Shown in pieces: positions 18,744-27,203 of a DNA stretch of 27,203 nt. Under the pieces are notes generated by a model. It was not told the origin of the DNA, made no database searches, and was given only the letters and a program-made list of their open reading frames with translations. A program made the translations under genes and the position numbers. The DNA is from a virus: IMG/VR virus record IMGVR_UViG_3300017720_001558, positions 1 through 27,203 of that record; one strand, 5' to 3'. Within the stretch, counting starts at the first letter, position 1. The number at the start of each line of letters is the position of its first letter.

Positions 18744-19122
18744 AAGACCTCGTAATGCTCGTGCGGCTGAACCTGTAAAGTATGTGCCGAAGGGGTGGGG
18801 ATATGAAAAGTGGATCGCAAACTGCGAGAAATATTGTGGTAAACTTTTGTTTATTGCAAAGGATAAACAGTGTTCATGGCACTATCATAAATTAAAAGAC
18901 GAAGTATTTTTTGTACAAAGTGGTAAGATAAAATTGTATCATGGATGGGATGACGATATAGAAAAAGCGGAGATAACAATATTAAGAAGAGGAGATAAAT
19001 TTCATGTACCTATTGGTCTGAAGCATCGTATGTTTGCACTAGAAGATACTGAACTATTTGAGTTTAGTACAGAACATATGGATTCAGATTCACATAGAAT
19101 TATGCCTGGTGATCTAATATGA
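18721..19122 (+). CDS. Cupin-domain protein
   Basis: 133 residues. The cupin motif 1 is CSWHYHKLKDEVFFVQSGKI (51-70), with metal ligands H54, H56 and E61; motif 2 is GDKFHVPIGLKHRMF (91-105), with H102. Such single cupins are often sugar-phosphate isomerases/epimerases or mannose-6-phosphate-isomerase-like proteins, or dioxygenases. The N-terminal ~20 residues (Arg-rich) overlap the HAD gene by 23 bases and there is no better in-frame start before the domain. In context a sugar-modifying role or a further oxygenase step is likely; the exact reaction is unknown. Confidence 0.78.
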   Translation: MTSLGPSRRPRNARAAEPVKYVPKGWGYEKWIANCEKYCGKLLFIAKDKQCSWHYHKLKDEVFFVQSGKIKLYHGWDDDIEKAEITILRRGDKFHVPIGLKHRMFALEDTELFEFSTEHMDSDSHRIMPGDLI

Positions 19123-19733
19123 TAGAGAAGATTACGGACATGATTTATGTTGAAAGAGATGTCCTATCACAAGAACAATGTGATGAGTTAATAAAGTATT
19201 TTTGGGAGAGTGAAGATAAACATGATGATGGTAAGGTGGAACACTTCAAGGATGGAGAATATAAAGGCAAGTTAGTAAACAAGGATCATAAAAATTGTAC
19301 TCAATTTATGTTTGAGCCTGGTCATAAGTATGCAAACTTAATGACAGAGGTAATTCAAAACGCATATCTAAATTACAGATACCAACTACCAGTATTACCG
19401 TCATCAGATCTTGCAATATTGGATTATACGATTAGAGTCTATCCTAAAGGGGAAGGTATATTTAAAACACATGTAGATCAATCAGAAGGCGGAACTATAT
19501 CCAGACTCTTTGCTTGTATCATATATTTGAATGACGTGGAGGAAGGAGGTGAAACATTCTTCCCTGATTGGAATATTGGATGTAGATGTGAAAGAGGTAA
19601 GATATTACTATTCCCATGTAACTGGATGTTCCCACATGGATCTAACAAAAATATATCTCACGACAAATATATACTAACTGCTTTTATAAATTTAAACTAC
19701 GACATGCCCATGTATTCTGATACAGAAGCATAA
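19119..19733 (+). CDS. 2OG-Fe(II) oxygenase, prolyl-4-hydroxylase type
   Basis: 204 residues. The core reads YTIRVYPKGEGIFKTHVDQS (103-122) with H118 and D120, FACIIYLNDVEEGGETFFPD (131-150), GKILLFPCNWMFPHGS (160-175) with distal H173, then K183 in the position where prolyl 4-hydroxylases use Lys rather than Arg for 2-oxoglutarate. All catalytic residues are present. It begins by a four-base overlap with the cupin gene and ends 37 bases inside the convergent epimerase gene. Known relatives hydroxylate protein prolines or other side chains; cyanophage genomes often carry several copies of unknown target. Confidence 0.85.
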   Translation: MIEKITDMIYVERDVLSQEQCDELIKYFWESEDKHDDGKVEHFKDGEYKGKLVNKDHKNCTQFMFEPGHKYANLMTEVIQNAYLNYRYQLPVLPSSDLAILDYTIRVYPKGEGIFKTHVDQSEGGTISRLFACIIYLNDVEEGGETFFPDWNIGCRCERGKILLFPCNWMFPHGSNKNISHDKYILTAFINLNYDMPMYSDTEA

Positions 19734-20506
19734 TCATGCTGATGCCATGAGTTATCTGCACATGTATATTCTTGATACTTACCTTCTAGATGTTTGGGGA
19801 AGGGGATTACTTCAATCTCCGCCCCTTCTTTTTTGGCAATCAACTCTGCAATCTCAAGAAATGAGATAGGATTGCCAGTCCCAACATCATAGATGCCGCT
19901 CCCTGCCGTATTATCTAGGACAACATCTACTACATCTTCTACCCACACAAAATCTCTAAAGGCATACTCAGACTCTTCAAAGATTTTAATTACCTTATTT
20001 TGTTTTGCTTGTAAAGTGAACTTACTGATTGGACTTGCTTGATCTCCTTTGTGTTCTTCACCTTTTCCATACACATTGAAGTATCTAAATCCTTGCACTT
20101 GTTCAAACCTATCCATATTATCTAAGACCCAGTAATCCACAGTTGCTTTTGATAGTGCGTAGAAGTTTAGTGGATTGATGGTCTTCTTTAAATATCCAAA
20201 GTCGCTATGAATTTTACCATACACAGACGCAGATGAGGCATATTTGACTGGGATAGAATGTTCTATTGCTTTCTCAAATAGTCCAATAGAAAACTCTACG
20301 TTATACTTGTGAATTTTATTTACATCTGTTTCTGTTGTACTTGATATAGCTCCCTGATGTATAATCATCTCTACCTCATCCCACTTATCATATTGACTTA
20401 AGAAGTCAAAAGCACCACTTTGTTCAATTCTGTAAAGGTTTTCTGGATCAAGTCTCTTTTTAAATGCTTGACCTATAAAACCTTGATAACCTGTTAGAAT
20501 AATCAT
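19697..20506 (-). CDS. hldD (rfaD-like): ADP-glycero-manno-heptose 6-epimerase (HldD/RfaD type)
   Basis: 269 residues, shorter than the ~310 of E. coli HldD. An N-terminal Rossmann motif TGYQGFIGQ (5-13), IIHQGAISSTTETD (48-61, an HldD hallmark), ASSASVYG, catalytic Y116-x3-K120, then GFRYFNVYGKGEEHKGDQAS, FRDFVWVEDVVDVVL, GIYDVGTGNP and IPFPKHLEGKYQEYT follow the HldD order. It converts ADP-D-glycero- to ADP-L-glycero-D-manno-heptose. It is on the opposite strand from the kinase and nucleotidyltransferase. It starts by an ATGA overlap with the upstream - strand oxygenase, and its last 12 codons are antisense to the + strand oxygenase. Confidence 0.88.
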   Translation of the reverse strand: MIILTGYQGFIGQAFKKRLDPENLYRIEQSGAFDFLSQYDKWDEVEMIIHQGAISSTTETDVNKIHKYNVEFSIGLFEKAIEHSIPVKYASSASVYGKIHSDFGYLKKTINPLNFYALSKATVDYWVLDNMDRFEQVQGFRYFNVYGKGEEHKGDQASPISKFTLQAKQNKVIKIFEESEYAFRDFVWVEDVVDVVLDNTAGSGIYDVGTGNPISFLEIAELIAKKEGAEIEVIPFPKHLEGKYQEYTCADNSWHQHDYASVSEYMGMS

Positions 20507-21201
20507 CTCGGAAAATGTAATGGTATAAAAAATACTTGGACTAATCGGTAAGTATCACCTTCAAAAAAGCCTGGTTTGTCATATGCACCGTGAAGAATTT
20601 GGTCTGGGTACATAATCATTCTATTATATTTCATCTCAGCAAGGTGGACTAAATCCCATGGACCTACACTATCTGAAACATATTCATCTCTCCATATCCC
20701 ATCTTGATCAGGGTTAACTTGCATCCCTTTATATGTATAGAACCCAGTGCCACCCTTACATTCCTCTGGTTTATTGAGATATACCAGACCAGCAAACCCT
20801 CTCGTTGTATACTCTAGTGGATAATCTATGTGTGGTGTCTTGATTCTGTAGTTTGATTGTGTTACGTTAACAGAAAAAGGCACATTCAAGCATGCTTCTT
20901 TGAATGTTTTGATCTCTCCCATCTTCAACCCATATACATTTTCTGCGATCTGTTGCCATATTTCATGTATATGATCAAGATTCATGTTCATATCCACTCT
21001 TACGCCAGGTAGATTACCGCATACTCTTGGGTTGTTTGTGCCTGGGCATCTGAGTGCAAGGTTCCTTACCTTGTCTGGATTCTTGTAGAAATTATCAATA
21101 TAAACTATGGGAGTTTCTTCCCAACCCATCAATTCTACTCTAGCTCCCAACTCCTCACTGATTGCAAAGGTTTTCTCTTCATCAATAAAATACTTTTTCA
21201 T
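20503..21201 (-). CDS. DUF6445-like putative 2OG-Fe(II) oxygenase, copy 2
   Basis: 232 residues. It shares with copy 1 at 10158 the segments VYIDNFYKNPDKVRNLAL (33-50), LVYLNKPEECKGGTGFY (139-155), MKYNRMIMYPDQILHGAY (190-207) and the end YRLVQVFFIP. Here the metal site is clear: HID (H124-D126), distal H204, with R219 as 2OG-binding candidate. It is the first gene of a two-gene - strand unit with the epimerase. Only 37 bases separate it from the divergent neck gene and no clear Shine-Dalgarno precedes its ATG. Substrate unknown; co-transcription with HldD suggests a sugar or glycoconjugate link. Confidence 0.72.
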   Translation of the reverse strand: MKKYFIDEEKTFAISEELGARVELMGWEETPIVYIDNFYKNPDKVRNLALRCPGTNNPRVCGNLPGVRVDMNMNLDHIHEIWQQIAENVYGLKMGEIKTFKEACLNVPFSVNVTQSNYRIKTPHIDYPLEYTTRGFAGLVYLNKPEECKGGTGFYTYKGMQVNPDQDGIWRDEYVSDSVGPWDLVHLAEMKYNRMIMYPDQILHGAYDKPGFFEGDTYRLVQVFFIPLHFPR

Positions 21202-21205
21202 ATAA

Positions 21206-21213
21206 CTAAATAC
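21206..21213 (+). promoter_or_regulatory. Candidate late promoter variant (CTAAATAC) before gp13
   Basis: CTAAATAC lies in the 37-base divergent gap, 33 bases before the GTG of gp13. The same octamer lies 28 bases before gp15 at 24345. It differs from T4 TATAAATA mainly in the first three bases. Two copies at matching distances upstream of neck genes suggest a late promoter variant; this is not proven. Confidence 0.45.
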
Positions 21214-21238
21214 TTCGGAGAACTAATGTGGAGAGGTT

Positions 21239-22057
21239 GTGGCAAAACCCAATAGTAAAGACGGTTTGAAGGAATATGCTCTTAGGAAACTTGGAAAGCC
21301 TGTTCTTGAGATCAACGTTGACGATGATCAAATAGATGATTTGATTGATGATGCTATCCAATTGTTTCATGAAAGACATGGTGAAGGTATCGACAGAGTA
21401 TTCCTAAAACATAAACTCACAGAAGCAGAAAAGAATACTATGACTGGTATTGCTTCTACTACCACTGGATCAAGTACATTTGGTGGTGTAAGTTCTGCTG
21501 AATTTACAGAGAGTGCAAACTATCTTCCTTTACCAGATAGTATAATCTCTGTACAGAAAGTATTTAAAATGGACTCATCAACCATATCGGCTGGTATGTT
21601 CAATCTTAAATATCAGATATTCCTTAATGATTTATACTACTACGGAGCGATTGATTTACTCAATTATGCCATGACAAAATCATACTTGGAAACTCTAGAT
21701 TACATGCTTAATCCTGATGTTCAGATAAGATTTAATAAAAAGAATAGTAGACTTTACTTAGATGTCAATATAAATGAATTGACTGATGATCATTTTCTAG
21801 TCATAGACTGTTTCCGTGTGGTTGATCCACAAAGCGATACAAATGTATATAATGATCACTGGCTTAAACAGTATACCACTTCACTCATTAAACGTCAATG
21901 GGGACAGAACCTTATTAAGTTTACTGGAGTAAAACTACCTGGCGGACTAGAACTGAATGGTAGACAAATATATGATGATGCAGTCATGGAGTTAGAAAAA
22001 CTCGATGAGAAGTTAATGCAAGAGTACGCAATGCCACCACTAGACTTTGTTGGATAA
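21239..22057 (+). CDS. 13: Neck protein (T4 gp13 homologue)
   Basis: 272 residues from GTG with GGAGAGG upstream; an ATG at 21225 is out of frame. The N-terminus MAKPNSKDGLKEYALRKLG followed by PVLEINVDDDQIDDLIDDA is the typical cyanophage gp13 start, and FNLKYQIFLNDLYYYGAIDLL is in the centre. In T4, gp13 and gp14 form the neck that seals the filled head and joins it to the tail. T4 gp13 is 309 residues, so this one is somewhat short. Gene order 13-14-15-16-17 follows T4. The stop overlaps the next start (TAATG). Confidence 0.9.
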   Translation: MAKPNSKDGLKEYALRKLGKPVLEINVDDDQIDDLIDDAIQLFHERHGEGIDRVFLKHKLTEAEKNTMTGIASTTTGSSTFGGVSSAEFTESANYLPLPDSIISVQKVFKMDSSTISAGMFNLKYQIFLNDLYYYGAIDLLNYAMTKSYLETLDYMLNPDVQIRFNKKNSRLYLDVNINELTDDHFLVIDCFRVVDPQSDTNVYNDHWLKQYTTSLIKRQWGQNLIKFTGVKLPGGLELNGRQIYDDAVMELEKLDEKLMQEYAMPPLDFVG

Positions 22058-24348
22058 TGCCTTTATCACCTTTCTTTCTACATGGATCTCCAAGTGAACA
22101 AAGACTAGTTCAAGACTTGGTAAACGAACACTTACAGTTGTTCGGTCAAGATGTCCTATACTTACCTAGAAAAATCATCAATCAGAATACAGTTATCCGA
22201 GAGATTACTGCTTCTAAGTTTGATGATAGTTTTAGACTGGAAGCATACCTTGTGAATGTTGATGGTTTTGGAACTCCATCTGATGCACTGACTAAGTTTG
22301 GTGTAAGAGATATGGATGAGATAACTCTAGTTGTATCTAAAGAGAGATATGATGATTTCATCACACCATTTATAAAATCATTTCCAGAAGGTGAAAGAGT
22401 AAATGCAAACACTCCAAATGAAGGAGACTTGATTTACTTACCTCTTGATAATGCTTTATTTGAAATCAAGTATGTAGAAAGAAAAGTACCATTCTACCAA
22501 GTAAATGAACTATTCATGTATGAGTTCAGATGTGAGATCTTTGAGCCTGAGGATGAGGTTGTTGATCTACCTGATGGATTGACTGATAAGAATGGTGAAG
22601 ATGTGGATGATGGTATCATCACTCGTGGCAATATCATTACTTTACAACTAGACAAAGATGATAATACAAATGCTTTGGGATATGTGTCTCTTGCATCCAC
22701 AGTTCCAGGCGTAAAATCTGTTCAACGTGTTCCACTATTCAATGATGGTAATTACTTAGGAACTCCAACAGTACAGATATTCAAACCTAAACAAGGTAAT
22801 CAAGCCACTGGAACCGTAACTATTTCAGAAGGTGGTATTGATACTGTAACTCTAACAAGCAGTGGGTCTAATTATCTTAGTGTTCCTACTATATCATTCA
22901 GTCCACCCAACCTAACCACATCATCACAGATTAAATTCGGTAACAATTCATTACATCATACTGCAATTACAGATGTAATTGGTGCTAACTTTGTATTCTC
23001 TACCAATGTGGACTCTAGAGATACTGGTAATGGAAGACTATCACTAAGTTTCTGGTTATATCCAACTAAATTTGATCCAGCAGTCAATGGTGGAACAGTC
23101 ATGTGGACTGATAGATTTAAGATATACTATAGAGAAACAGGTAACATTATCTTTGCTTCTGGTTCTGGATCTATTGAAAACACCACACCACTCAATCTAA
23201 ATGCTTGGAACTTCATCAGAGTAGAACAGTATAATACTGATGCGACTATATCTGTAAATGGAACTGTAAGTAATAATTTGAATACTGCCAACCCAATCAT
23301 GTTCTTTGCAGGCGATTTACTTAAGTTGGGTGCAGATACATCTGGTGCTGGTTTCATTCCAAGTCAGACTGCATCATTTGAGGGATTCTTAGACCACCTA
23401 ACTATCAACTTGACTGGTGACAATGCACTAAGAAACTTTACTGCAACTCAGGTTCCAAGTTCAGAAACATCACAAGAGACTGATGGACAGACTAATAGTA
23501 ACGCTTCATTCATTCGTAAGATGGACAATGAATCACCTCAAGTTATTGCAACTACTGATGTAAATAAAGTTGTAACAGGACTGACTATCAACTATGAGGG
23601 ATGGGGATACACCTCGGTTCCTATTATGACAATAGATCAACCCGCTCTTGGATCTCAGGCAACTGCTGTTGCGATCATGACAAGTAGAACTGGTGTTCCT
23701 AATCAGTCTATTGATAGAATACTAATCACAAATCCTGGCTTTGGATACACTGAGCCACCAATAGTAACATTCACAGGTGGTAGTCCTATATCTGTTGCGA
23801 TTGCTACTGCTGTAATATCAGAGGCAGTATTAGGTCCTATTGGACTCACAACTGGTGGTAGAGGATATACGTTTACACCTACAGTTGGTATTACCTCTGT
23901 GTACACACAACAGTCTAATGAAACCATACCACTACTACAGAACGCACAAGCAGAAGCAGTTGTAAGCACCGCAGGTACAGTCAAGGAAATTAGATATAGT
24001 AATGCTGGTGCTGGTTATACTAATACAACTGCATATGTTGGTATTCAGTCAGTGACATCTAACTTCTTCGGTGAGTTTGAAGTCGATGAACTAGTAACAC
24101 AGGTATCTACAGGTACGAGTGCATATGTAGCTAACTGGAATACTGCAAATAATATTCTTAAAGTTGTTGCATCAAGTGGCGACTTCACTGTAGGAGAGAC
24201 AATCGTTGGTGCTGCTGCAAGTTACAGGATTTTATCAGTTGGTGATGATCTTTCTACAGATATTCCTTTCGCTGCTAATGCAGAAATAGAGAGTGAAGCA
24301 GACGAGATTGTAGACTTCTCAGAAAGAAATCCATTCGGAGAGTTCTAA
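22057..24348 (+). CDS. 14: Neck protein (T4 gp14 homologue) with LamG-like insertion
   Basis: 763 residues against 256 in T4. Residues 1 to ~180 are the gp14 core (PLSPFFLHGSPSEQRLVQDL, then FGQDVLYLPRKIINQ and ALFEIKYVERKVPFYQVNE). After ~240 come glycine/tyrosine repeats of the form GxGYxxxPxVxF: NYLSVPTISF near 272, WGYTSVPIMTI near 509, FGYTEPPIVTF near 563, RGYTFTPTV near 603 and AGYTNTTAYV near 653. Between the first and second lies a concanavalin/LamG-like domain (about 286-450: LSLSFWLYPTKFDP, WNFIRVEQYNTDATISVNG, FEGFLDHLTI). The added parts probably project from the neck and may bind glycans; gp14 core identity is firm, the extra domains are structural inference. Confidence 0.88.
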   Translation: MPLSPFFLHGSPSEQRLVQDLVNEHLQLFGQDVLYLPRKIINQNTVIREITASKFDDSFRLEAYLVNVDGFGTPSDALTKFGVRDMDEITLVVSKERYDDFITPFIKSFPEGERVNANTPNEGDLIYLPLDNALFEIKYVERKVPFYQVNELFMYEFRCEIFEPEDEVVDLPDGLTDKNGEDVDDGIITRGNIITLQLDKDDNTNALGYVSLASTVPGVKSVQRVPLFNDGNYLGTPTVQIFKPKQGNQATGTVTISEGGIDTVTLTSSGSNYLSVPTISFSPPNLTTSSQIKFGNNSLHHTAITDVIGANFVFSTNVDSRDTGNGRLSLSFWLYPTKFDPAVNGGTVMWTDRFKIYYRETGNIIFASGSGSIENTTPLNLNAWNFIRVEQYNTDATISVNGTVSNNLNTANPIMFFAGDLLKLGADTSGAGFIPSQTASFEGFLDHLTINLTGDNALRNFTATQVPSSETSQETDGQTNSNASFIRKMDNESPQVIATTDVNKVVTGLTINYEGWGYTSVPIMTIDQPALGSQATAVAIMTSRTGVPNQSIDRILITNPGFGYTEPPIVTFTGGSPISVAIATAVISEAVLGPIGLTTGGRGYTFTPTVGITSVYTQQSNETIPLLQNAQAEAVVSTAGTVKEIRYSNAGAGYTNTTAYVGIQSVTSNFFGEFEVDELVTQVSTGTSAYVANWNTANNILKVVASSGDFTVGETIVGAAASYRILSVGDDLSTDIPFAANAEIESEADEIVDFSERNPFGEF

Positions 24349-24352
24349 ATAC
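24345..24352 (+). promoter_or_regulatory. Candidate late promoter variant (CTAAATAC) before gp15
   Basis: CTAAATAC overlaps the gp14 stop codon and lies 28 bases before the gp15 ATG, with an AAGGTGG ribosome site between. It is identical to the octamer before gp13 at 21206. Confidence 0.45.
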
Positions 24353-24372
24353 TATTATAAGGTGGTAATATT

Positions 24373-25458
24373 ATGTTAACAAATCATTTCTATCATGAGA
24401 TCATCCGTAAGACAATCGTGTCTTTCGGAACCTTGTTTAATAACATTGAGATCCAACACACGGACAAGTCTGGTAAGACAATCAGTGTTGTAAAAGTTCC
24501 AGTATCTTATGGTCCTCAACAGAAATTCTTGGCAAGAGTATCTCAAGGTAGAGACTATCAGGGTGACAGCACCATAGGAACTACATTGACATTACCAAGA
24601 ATGTCTTTTGAAGTCATGGGTATGAACTATGACGCAACTAGGAAAGTCTCTACAATGCAGTCTTTCAAATCTGTTAACAAAGAAACTAACAAATTTGTAA
24701 AGGCATTTATGCCTGTTCCTTATAACATCAATATGAATCTCAGTATCCTTGCTAAACTTAATGAGGATGCTATACAAATTTTAGAACAGATACTTCCTTA
24801 TTTCCAACCAGCATTTAATTTAACAATAGATTTGGTAGATATAATTGGTGAGAAAAGAGATATGCCAATTACTCTAGAGAACATACAGATGGAAGATAAT
24901 TATGAAGATGACTTTCTAACTAGAAGAGCATTGGTATATACTTTATCTTTTACATGCAAGACATACTTATTTGGTCCTATCAATAATAGTACTGATGGAT
25001 TGATCAAGAAAGTACAAACAGATTACTATACAGAGACAAAAAATATCAAGACTGCATCTAGACAACAGAGATATACAGCAGTTCCTATTGCAGTTAAGGA
25101 TTACACCAACGATGATACTGCAAGAACTAACGAAGTTATAGATACTACTAGAACACAGTTCGCTGTGAATAGTGCAACACCTTTCAATAAAGGTGACTAC
25201 ATTGAAATTGATGATGAGAAAATGTTAATCAGAGCCATCTCTGGTAATAGATTGACAGTTAGAAGAGGTGAGTTTAATAGTGTGGTTATGGCACATGACA
25301 TTAATATTCCTATAAATTCTATTAATGTACAGGATGATTCACAGGTAGTTGATAGAGTCATTGAAACTGGTGATGACTTTGGATTCGGTGAAACTATCAC
25401 AGATTATGTGGATGGTAATGTGTTTAGTGCAAGTCAACAAAGGGATGTTGAGACATGA
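24373..25458 (+). CDS. 15: Proximal tail sheath stabiliser / tail completion protein (T4 gp15 homologue)
   Basis: 361 residues. The N-terminal two thirds begin MLTNHFYHEIIRKTIVSFG and contain LFNNIEIQHTD, VPVSYGPQQKFLARV, LPRMSFEVMGMNYDATRK and DFLTRRALVYTLSFTCKTYL, the recognised gp15 pattern. In T4, gp15 (272 residues) caps the contractile tail tube and sheath and binds the neck. An extra C-terminal ~85 residues (about 270-355) hold a small beta module, FNKGDYIEIDDEKMLIRAI then RLTVRRGEF, as seen in phage structural add-ons. AAGGTGG lies eight bases before the ATG. The stop overlaps the next start. Confidence 0.88.
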   Translation: MLTNHFYHEIIRKTIVSFGTLFNNIEIQHTDKSGKTISVVKVPVSYGPQQKFLARVSQGRDYQGDSTIGTTLTLPRMSFEVMGMNYDATRKVSTMQSFKSVNKETNKFVKAFMPVPYNINMNLSILAKLNEDAIQILEQILPYFQPAFNLTIDLVDIIGEKRDMPITLENIQMEDNYEDDFLTRRALVYTLSFTCKTYLFGPINNSTDGLIKKVQTDYYTETKNIKTASRQQRYTAVPIAVKDYTNDDTARTNEVIDTTRTQFAVNSATPFNKGDYIEIDDEKMLIRAISGNRLTVRRGEFNSVVMAHDINIPINSINVQDDSQVVDRVIETGDDFGFGETITDYVDGNVFSASQQRDVET

Positions 25459-25901
25459 TTGAAGACGAAACATTTGATTCTATAGATGACGCTCTAGATA
25501 TCGTTGATAGAGGAGCGGAAATAATGAAGAAAGAACCTTCTAAACCTACTAGGACTAGTCCTAAGAGTTTGGATAAGTCTAAGAAACCAGATGTAGATAA
25601 AGATTATGAATATAGTAGAGCTCAGTTGTATTCTCTAGTTGAGAAAGGACAGGAGGCAGTTGATGGTGCATTAGATGTGGCACAACAATCAGACTCTGCA
25701 AGGGCGTATGAAGTTGCTGGACAACTTATCAAACACGTTGCAGATACAGCAGATAAACTCATAGACTTGCAAAAGAAAATGAAGGATATCGATGAAGTGA
25801 AAGAAAAAAACAACACCACTGTTACTAATAATTCTTTATTTGTCGGAAGCACAACCGAGTTACAAAAGATGTTGAAAGACATGAAGAAGGGATCAAAATG
25901 A
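25455..25901 (+). CDS. 16: Small terminase subunit (T4 gp16 homologue)
   Basis: 148 residues, close to the 164 of T4 gp16. An acidic N-terminus and basic linker (KPTRTSPKSLDKSKKPD) lead to a helical centre (SRAQLYSLVEKGQEAVDGAL, ARAYEVAGQLIKHVADTADK) that matches the coiled-coil oligomerisation domain. The end NSLFVGSTTELQKMLKDM is characteristic of the family. It assembles as a ring that presents concatemeric DNA to gp17 and regulates its ATPase. It is coupled by ATGA overlaps to gp15 upstream and to the small basic gene downstream. Confidence 0.85.
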   Translation: MIEDETFDSIDDALDIVDRGAEIMKKEPSKPTRTSPKSLDKSKKPDVDKDYEYSRAQLYSLVEKGQEAVDGALDVAQQSDSARAYEVAGQLIKHVADTADKLIDLQKKMKDIDEVKEKNNTTVTNNSLFVGSTTELQKMLKDMKKGSK

Positions 25902-26281
25902 AAACCTATCAACAGTTCAACGAATCAGTAAAAGATTGGTGGAATAAAGGGAAGAATGAACGTATTCCTAATGAAGACCAAGCATCATTGAAAACACTAT
26001 TCAAAGATGATCAAGCTCAAAAAGGAATGGATAGTGATAACTATAAGAAAGGTGGGAAACCAAATCCTCTTGGTAGACCAGATAGATCTATTTTAGGACG
26101 TGACTTGAATCCAAGAAGTTCAGAATTCTTGAAAAGAGTTAAAGCTGATGGGGGTGGGTTCGGATCTGGACCAACTCCACTTGTAAGACAACTTGGTAAT
26201 CGTGCTGCTAAACCAGTCGTTAGTCTCGTTAAAAAATTTAGAGGTAAAGGACAAAAACACCCACAAAATAAAGGATCATGA
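25898..26281 (+). CDS. Small basic protein between terminase subunits; possible internal head protein
   Basis: 127 residues, strongly basic, Lys/Arg/Gly/Pro-rich, without Cys. The first ten residues MKTYQQFNES resemble the capsid-targeting peptide of T4 internal proteins (MKTYQEF type), which directs proteins into the prohead and is later cut by the gp21 protease. The middle (KKGGKPNPLGRPDRSILGRD) and the end (VKKFRGKGQKHPQNKGS) look disordered and able to bind DNA. It overlaps gp16 and the next small gene by four bases. The internal-protein idea is inference; a packaging accessory protein is the alternative. Confidence 0.6.
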   Translation: MKTYQQFNESVKDWWNKGKNERIPNEDQASLKTLFKDDQAQKGMDSDNYKKGGKPNPLGRPDRSILGRDLNPRSSEFLKRVKADGGGFGSGPTPLVRQLGNRAAKPVVSLVKKFRGKGQKHPQNKGS

Positions 26282-26529
26282 AAAGTTTTAAATCAATCCA
26301 AGAAGAAGGTAACTGGCAAAGACTGAATAAGTATGGTGCTACATATAGTATCACATTTATATTCAGAGGTCAGACCAAAATGATTCAGATGTTCTTCCCT
26401 CAGAGAGCAAGACCTCTGAAAAAGAATGTTCAATATGAATTAGAAAAGATTTATCCAGGCGGAAAGGTAATATACTTTGATGCTAGTGATAAAGACCCAA
26501 CAAAACCACTATTAGTAATTGACTCTTAA
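26278..26529 (+). CDS. Small hypothetical protein between terminase subunits
   Basis: 83 residues. It starts MKSFKSIQEEGNWQRLNKYG, then a compact alpha/beta fold-like region ATYSITFIFRGQTKMIQMFF, LKKNVQYELEKIYPGGKVIYF and LLVIDS. The N-terminus again has the MK(T/S)(Y/F)xx(F/I)xE shape, and SIQE-E fits the (I/L)xE cleavage consensus of T4 gp21. It is linked to the gene before by an ATGA overlap and ends three bases before the gp17 ATG. I do not recognise the family. Confidence 0.6.
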   Translation: MKSFKSIQEEGNWQRLNKYGATYSITFIFRGQTKMIQMFFPQRARPLKKNVQYELEKIYPGGKVIYFDASDKDPTKPLLVIDS

Positions 26530-26532
26530 ATC

Positions 26533-27203
26533 ATGCCAGTTGATAATGCACAATACCTTGGAAATCCGAATCTAAAAAAAGCGAACGTTGCTCAGAACTT
26601 TACTAAGAAACAAGTTGCTGAGTTTCTAAAGTGCGCTCAAGATCCTGTATACTTTGCACAGAAGTATGTGAAGATCATTAACTTGGATGAAGGTCTAGTA
26701 CCATTCCAGATGTATGACTTCCAAGAAAAGTTAGTTAATAATTTCCATAATAATAGATTTAATATATGTAAGATGCCTAGACAGTCAGGTAAGTCAACGA
26801 CTGTGGTATCATATCTTTTACACTATGCCATCTTCAATGATAGTGTCACAATAGGTATCCTTGCAAACAAGGCTCAGACTGCAAGAGATCTACTTGGTAG
26901 ATTGCAGATTGCATACGAGAACTTACCCAAGTGGATGCAACAGGGTATCATTGCATGGAACAAGGGATCTATGGAATTGGAAAACAAATCCAAGATCATT
27001 GCCGCATCTACCTCTGCATCAGCTGTCCGAGGTATGTCATTCAATATTATATTCTTAGACGAATTTGCGTTCGTTGCCAACCATTTAGCAGATGATTTCT
27101 TTAGTAGTGTATATCCTACTATTAGTTCTGGTAAGTCTACTAAGGTAATTATTGTTTCTACCCCTCGTGGTATGAATCACTTTTACCGACTGTGGCATGA
27201 TGC
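26533..27203 (+). CDS. 17: Large terminase subunit (T4 gp17 homologue), 5' part
   Basis: The ATG at 26533 opens a frame that runs to the window end (223 complete codons), so the gene is truncated by the window. An N-terminal segment has VAEFLKCAQDPVYFAQKYVK and VPFQMYDFQEKL. The Walker A is MPRQSGKST (81-89), Walker B is IIFLDEFAFV with D176-E177, and the coupling motif VSTPRGMNHFY follows. This is the ATPase half of the packaging motor; the C-terminal nuclease lies outside. The terminase context (gp16 upstream) and the arginine-containing Walker A typical of T4 gp17 make the call secure. Confidence 0.95.
   Translation, partial: MPVDNAQYLGNPNLKKANVAQNFTKKQVAEFLKCAQDPVYFAQKYVKIINLDEGLVPFQMYDFQEKLVNNFHNNRFNICKMPRQSGKSTTVVSYLLHYAIFNDSVTIGILANKAQTARDLLGRLQIAYENLPKWMQQGIIAWNKGSMELENKSKIIAASTSASAVRGMSFNIIFLDEFAFVANHLADDFFSSVYPTISSGKSTKVIIVSTPRGMNHFYRLWHD

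Follow-up and report, generated by a model that had tools for sequence, protein, structure and literature searches.

Two tagged genes between the terminase subunits

The window is the whole 27,203-nucleotide stretch analysed here (positions 1 to 27,203 of IMG/VR record IMGVR_UViG_3300017720_001558). Its source is a Synechococcus-phage relative of S-SSM7, with ~81% DNA identity to S-SSM7 and S-SSM6a over 90% of positions 20001–26529. Two small genes lie between those of the terminase subunits, where a sequence-only reading had placed them and had proposed that both carry capsid-targeting peptides. ATGA overlaps couple gp16 (ending at 25901), the gene for a 127-residue protein (25898–26281) and that for an 83-residue protein (starting at 26278), and gp17 comes next. 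The two products are the most basic of the 25 genes in the window, with pI values of 10.25 and 9.70, so that the description of the first as very basic holds and extends to the second. The features of the locus are:

25455–25901, + strand: gp16, small terminase subunit (PHROG 445, E 6e-57; PF11053)
25898–26281, + strand: 127-residue basic protein with the N-terminal tag MKTYQQFNES, a candidate optional cargo gene; relatives in the same slot in 10 other contigs and downstream of gp46 in 4 contigs
25898–25924, + strand: candidate targeting peptide MKTYQQFNE, codons 1–9 of the 127-residue gene; Tyr4 and Phe7 as in T4 IPIII, with gp21 possibly cutting behind codon 9, at FNE↓S
26278–26529, + strand: 83-residue basic protein with the N-terminal tag MKSFKSIQEE, orthologue of S-SSM7 SSSM7_139
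26278–26304, + strand: candidate targeting peptide MKSFKSIQE, codons 1–9 of the 83-residue gene; canonical IQE↓E site, motif kept in 80/80 contigs (best 80 of 90), residues 1–8 disordered in the model
26335–26487, + strand: ordered β-β-α-β core, residues 20–70 of the 83-residue protein, which recurs within larger virion proteins of cyanophages
26533–27203, + strand: gp17, large terminase subunit, running off the window (PF03237, E 4e-18; PHROG 5989, E 5e-62)

Sullivan et al. 2010 (PMC3037559) count the gp16–gp17 interval among four hot-spots for genes enriched in Synechococcus phages. SSSM7_139 occupies the same slot with 89% protein identity to the 83-residue protein; unlike the window, S-SSM7 has no gene for the 127-residue protein there. 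Elsewhere in the window, two opposite-strand genes lie directly upstream of gp13 (19697–21201, − strand); at the corresponding place, S-SSM7 encodes a nucleotide-sugar epimerase and a ‘minor coat protein’.

Similarity to the T4 internal-protein propeptide

MKTYQQFNES and MKSFKSIQEE had been likened to the targeting sequence of T4 internal proteins, and the T4 record bears this out, since its ipII and ipIII genes both begin MKTYQEFIAE. In the portion of PMC9026906 available, residues 4 and 7 of the T4 tag (Tyr4 and Phe7 in IPIII) are assigned to targeting and residues 8 and 10 to processing. The 127-residue protein has Tyr4 and, like IPII and IPIII, Phe7 in 11 of 11 sequences. The 83-residue family has Phe or Tyr at position 4 but Ile, Leu or Val at position 7, and thus shares half of the pair; the Ile in place of Phe in the window is a point against targeting. 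Both window proteins resemble IPII and IPIII in their N-terminal stretch of 9–10 residues with an aromatic residue at position 4 and a terminal Glu, in their small basic bodies, and in being encoded by variable, optional genes. They differ in that their bodies have no Pfam or PHROG internal-protein match, the Glu is at position 9 rather than 10, and the genes lie between gp16 and gp17; the 127-residue protein also has FNE where T4 has IAE.

A scan for the motif was carried out on S-SSM7 together with the window. Six of 325 ORF starts (ORFs of at least 50 residues) match M[KR].[FY]..[FILVM].{1,2}E, compared to a mean of 0.296 and a maximum of 3 when each N-terminal column was permuted among the proteins (0/2000 shuffles reached 6). 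Two of these starts are the adjacent window genes, and the other four, all from S-SSM7, are the orthologue of the 83-residue protein, SSSM7_196, SSSM7_213 and SSSM7_235. A comparison of starts with internal methionines in S-SSM7 gave a weaker result (3/266 vs 1/1245, p 0.019). As a positive control, a DNA pattern recovered ipII, ipIII and 61.1 at gene starts of T4, along with chance matches; ipI is absent from the matches identified there. Since ipI was not recovered and the regular expression, which accepts ATG only, overlooks GTG starts such as that of SSSM7_194, the tag counts are lower bounds. The DNA pattern had no match in the podovirus P-SSP7 and none in frame in ORFs of at least 30 residues in phiKZ, and a pattern search found no in-frame tagged gene start in S-PM2 or HTVC008M. 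We found no application of the tag to cyanophages in the titles and abstract openings searched, which lay largely outside subscription journals; in PMC9026906, which treats the capsid-targeting sequence, the mention of cyanophage that was located belongs to the reference list.

Conservation of the tags and properties of the bodies

The proposal depended on the N-terminal motif being kept in homologues, which is the case for both proteins. MKTYQQFNES is present in all 11 sequences of the 127-residue protein. Its gene occurs in 11 of 80 contigs (best 80 of 90), the window's near-twin among them, and four further relatives, with MKTYKQFNED, were found in other contigs, not near the terminase genes but downstream of gp46, which indicates that the gene moves. 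The protein matched nothing in Pfam or PHROG, a tblastn search of named phages returned a single chance-like Gordonia match (E 0.08), and structural modelling gave no reliable fold (mean pLDDT 51). The slot protein of contig L012 (MKTYEEFNES) was considered as an unrelated body under a similar tag and rejected: the 127-residue bodies score 42 against it, compared to 33.2 ± 6.5 for shuffles (30/300 reach this score), the body from contig L015 scores 52 (0/300), and the L015 and L012 bodies have an RGKGQ.YSKK tail in common. The L012 protein is possibly a diverged relative and was therefore not counted as unrelated.

The tag of the 83-residue protein follows MK..[FY][KR].[ILV].E[EQ] in 80/80 contigs (best 80 of 90), many of them closely related to one another. 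Within this set it is kept as 23 different strings, despite a one-residue indel directly after it. More distant tagged forms include MKSFQKFLGE↓G in Sf-FS3 and MK[DN]L[NK]QF[IY]SE↓A in 11 of 11 contigs (L367–L377), and some short stand-alone relatives of the domain carry no tag (e.g. in L412 and L431). In the AlphaFold2 model, residues 1–8 are disordered and residues 20–70 form a confident β-β-α-β core. This fold recurs in cyanophage proteins, including a virion protein of S-SCSM1 and DUF6321 proteins, and the body of a tagged family, PHROG 1742, is homologous to it (hhalign 95%, E 2.7e-8). The 83-residue protein itself had no DUF6321 (PF19846) match in Pfam at E up to 1, and in the larger relatives DUF6321 falls outside the 83-residue-type domain. 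A Foldseek search of the PDB gave no match at E 0.001. The VIA likenesses of the fold, to T7 Gp2 (Z 5.0, rmsd 2.7, 50 residues) and to the RNA polymerase epsilon subunit YkzG (Z 5.2, rmsd 2.4, 51 residues), are weak, and ribosomal proteins score equally well. The A4 profile, run without a positive control, found nothing in S-SM1, S-PM2, syn9, HTVC008M or P-SSM2.

The PHROG 1742 proteins (SSCSM1_30 and SfCH8_73) are a further parallel to the 83-residue protein in that they combine a tag, MK[ST][FY]KQFMSE, with the gp16–gp17 slot and a homologous body. They differ in their length of 106 residues, in extra N- and C-terminal parts, and in keeping the register of the T4 tag.

Candidate processing sites and the prohead protease

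The SIQE↓E sequence of the 83-residue protein agrees, as had been stated, with the gp21 consensus (I/L)xE. The IQE at residues 7–9 is its sole hydrophobic-x-E, and the tag ends in [ILV]xE in 80/80 contigs (best 80 of 90). The 127-residue protein also has a single hydrophobic-x-E, FNE at residues 7–9, and its cleavage is uncertain because FNE↓S departs from (I/L)xE. Among distant sequences of the 83-residue domain, [ILVMFY]xE↓[ASG] directly precedes the domain in 18/18 non-redundant cases, despite their differing upstream sequence; 16 of the 18 lack the MK tag. The site is unique within 14 of the 18 sequences, against a background of 35 occurrences per 3314 residues. Phe stands at P3 in some of these sites too (SFKE↓A, SFHE↓A), so that a cut at FNE↓S is plausible.

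Over 7.2 kb, contig 3300017756_000218 matches the window at 99.9% identity, and it extends through gp17–gp20 to gp21 (partial), gp22 and gp23. Its gp23 contains AFQSLTE↓ASPTNS, a cut being predicted from the site. Thus, the same phage population encodes gp21 and, judging from this site, a gp23 that would be cut at a matching position. Cleavage of the 83-residue protein by gp21 is likely; for the 127-residue protein, slightly less speaks for a cut than against one. We also considered whether the spacing of the tag tracks the gp23 site of the same phage; this holds in five of seven contigs and fails in L082 and L084, and the idea was dropped.

The same tag on unrelated bodies

An exact DNA scan of viral contigs for MKTYQ[QE]F found at least 119 stretches; 85 matches were readable, and 81 of these lie in ORFs of at least 40 residues. 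Among the matches listed, the bodies (from residue 11 on) form 26 blastp clusters headed by MKTYQ[QE]F. A Glu is present at position 9 or 10, both outside the scan pattern, in 24 of the 26 listed clusters, compared to 134 of 635 ORFs (21%; binomial 1e-14). Another T4-like gene was found nearby, in the stretch examined, at 35 of 84 loci (80 among the scan matches listed and the four loci of the 127-residue family). A few matches, e.g. in helicases, are probably due to chance. The FxE sub-type is also seen on other bodies (FSED, FTED, FQED, FNEG), and a 293-residue protein beginning MKTYQQFNEG is encoded two genes upstream of gp17 in L304/L314. Judged by sequence, the tag looks like an address that can be moved from one unrelated protein to another.

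A distant T4-like contig, L283, has a run of tagged genes of 65–100 residues around gp14 and before gp15 (372–2492 in reverse-strand numbering); six are recognized by eye and five by the regular expression, and their bodies have no mutual blastp matches.

Tagged proteins in virions

The T4-GC190 nucleotidyltransferase (NMNAT/cytidyltransferase) carries the same kind of tag, e.g. MKSFLQFLKE↓A. It is unlike the window proteins in being a large enzyme found in virions, with an unrelated body and locus. The tag is present in 9 of 11 records (S-SCSM1, S-SM2, Sf-CH8, P-SSM2, Sf-FS3, contig G001, S-SSM7 with a GTG start, syn9 and S-SM1) and absent in S-PM2 and HTVC008M. According to the available text of PMC3037559, mass spectrometry found the enzyme in virions of S-SM1 and it was undetected in those of S-PM2; in S-SCSM1, its presence in virions is reported from mass spectrometry in the accessible part of PMC9602691 and likewise in the record annotation. 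Tag and virion detection, as given in these partial sources from different studies, are therefore concordant in 3/3 phages (S-SM1, S-SCSM1 and S-PM2). A point against packaging is that SSCSM1_30, with MKTFKQFMSE, the gp16–gp17 slot and a homologous fold, is annotated as hypothetical, whereas SSCSM1_29 and SSCSM1_31 on either side of it are labelled as virion proteins; the small size of SSCSM1_30 may explain the lack of such a label.

Tag-like sequences also occur away from N-termini: RTFKEFLE near the C-terminus of SSCSM1_93, annotated as a virion protein (L149, 3127–3336), and KSFGNFVAE inside the DUF6321 protein SfCH8_72 (L003, 3596–4804). By sequence, the core-binding motif may also function internally or C-terminally. 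In S-SM2, the slot protein SSM2_108 (L006, 1890–2318) begins with MKTLKQFLKE, continues with PTNSVGNGGYTSAGGQTVAGYD, which resembles the gp23 arm (63 vs 32 ± 5, 0/500), and has an internal tag-like KTFEEFRE. Separately, T4 gp61.1 (18966–19130, L131) and the gp61-near genes of S-SSM7 (170591–170764, L092) and S-SCSM1 (93121–93306, L149) look like a propeptide and a gp21 site followed by a copy of the mature N-terminal arm of gp23. IKE↓DMVAGDSGGNPENISIGTTSGAVVNKGP of gp61.1 scores 69 with LTE↓AEIGGDHGYNATNIAAGQTSGAVTQIGP of gp23, compared to 28 ± 4 for shuffles (0/500), and SSSM7_213 scores 77 with the gp23 arm (28 ± 4, 0/500). PHROG 696, ‘major head protein’, matches both cyanophage genes, and SSCSM1_97 is annotated as a virion protein.

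Proposed role and alternatives

Prohead targeting best explains the motif, its conservation, its portability and the protease context, and the capsid-targeting proposal gains support from the conserved motif, its occurrence on unrelated bodies, a gp21 accompanied by SLTE↓A in gp23, and a tagged enzyme found in virions. We consider it probable, from the sequences compared, that in this T4-like cyanophage both genes encode internal head proteins with prohead-targeting propeptides. By analogy with T4 genetics, the first 9–10 residues would be the capsid-targeting sequence, with Tyr/Phe4 and Phe/Ile7 binding the scaffolding core, and the tagged protein would be enclosed as the gp23 shell forms. 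The prohead protease gp21 would then cut after Glu9, at IQE↓E in the 83-residue protein and, with less certainty, probably at the FNE↓S of the 127-residue protein. The predicted products are a compact β-β-α-β protein of 74 residues and a basic, largely unstructured protein of 118 residues, lying alongside the packaged DNA with which both might be delivered. The gp16–gp17 slot, a known hypervariable spot, would serve as a site of exchangeable cargo genes. In T4, internal proteins are injected with the DNA and some inhibit host defences, as is known for IPI (PMC3012670, in the part available). Delivery of the window proteins into the cell, which rests on this analogy, is conceivable though somewhat doubtful, and a counter-defence role appears unlikely.

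The tag could instead lead into the core proteins that are scaffold or core components, like T4 gp67 and gp68, or DNA-condensing packaging aids rather than delivered effectors. Such a role would suit two small basic proteins whose translation is coupled to that of terminase genes, one of them (the 127-residue protein) without a confident fold. However, the 127-residue gene is missing in most relatives (present in 11/80, best 80 of 90), which argues against an essential core part, and with one hydrophobic-x-E per protein gp21 would not shred either product; we regard this explanation as unlikely. The 83-residue domain might also be an outer or a neck or tail structural part, its N-terminus binding another virion surface and not serving as a core address, since the domain is found inside large cyanophage virion proteins of the same slot (SSCSM1_29 and DUF6321 proteins), some annotated as structural. 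The gp21-type site at the domain border of the larger proteins (18/18) speaks against this, gp21 being active within proheads, as does the tag on many bodies that lack the domain, and we find an outer location very unlikely.

The ATGA coupling and the position between gp16 and gp17 could also indicate accessory or regulatory proteins of the terminase, whose likeness to the T4 propeptide would stem from chance or from common translation-start preferences. This is scarcely credible in view of the column-shuffle result (0/2000), the relatives of the 127-residue protein downstream of gp46 and off the terminase genes, and the occurrence of this tag on unrelated genes at other loci.

Beyond the two internal-protein candidates, the evidence is evenly poised on whether marine T4-like phages use one portable label, genome-wide, that loads dozens of unrelated proteins, including the NMNAT-like enzyme, into the head for delivery with the DNA. 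The gp16–gp17 hot-spot would then act as a dock for cargo, and a domain of the 83-residue type would be released from larger virion proteins through the gp21 site at its border. If true, such a label would explain the recurrence of NMNAT-like enzymes in cyanophage virions and would supply a mechanism for the virion-borne nucleotidyltransferase, which the S-SCSM1 authors merely noted in the accessible text of PMC9602691. A 10-residue label readable from sequence would also predict which of the many unnamed proteins of cyanophages are carried into the host alongside the DNA, and would make protein delivery into cyanobacteria directly testable.
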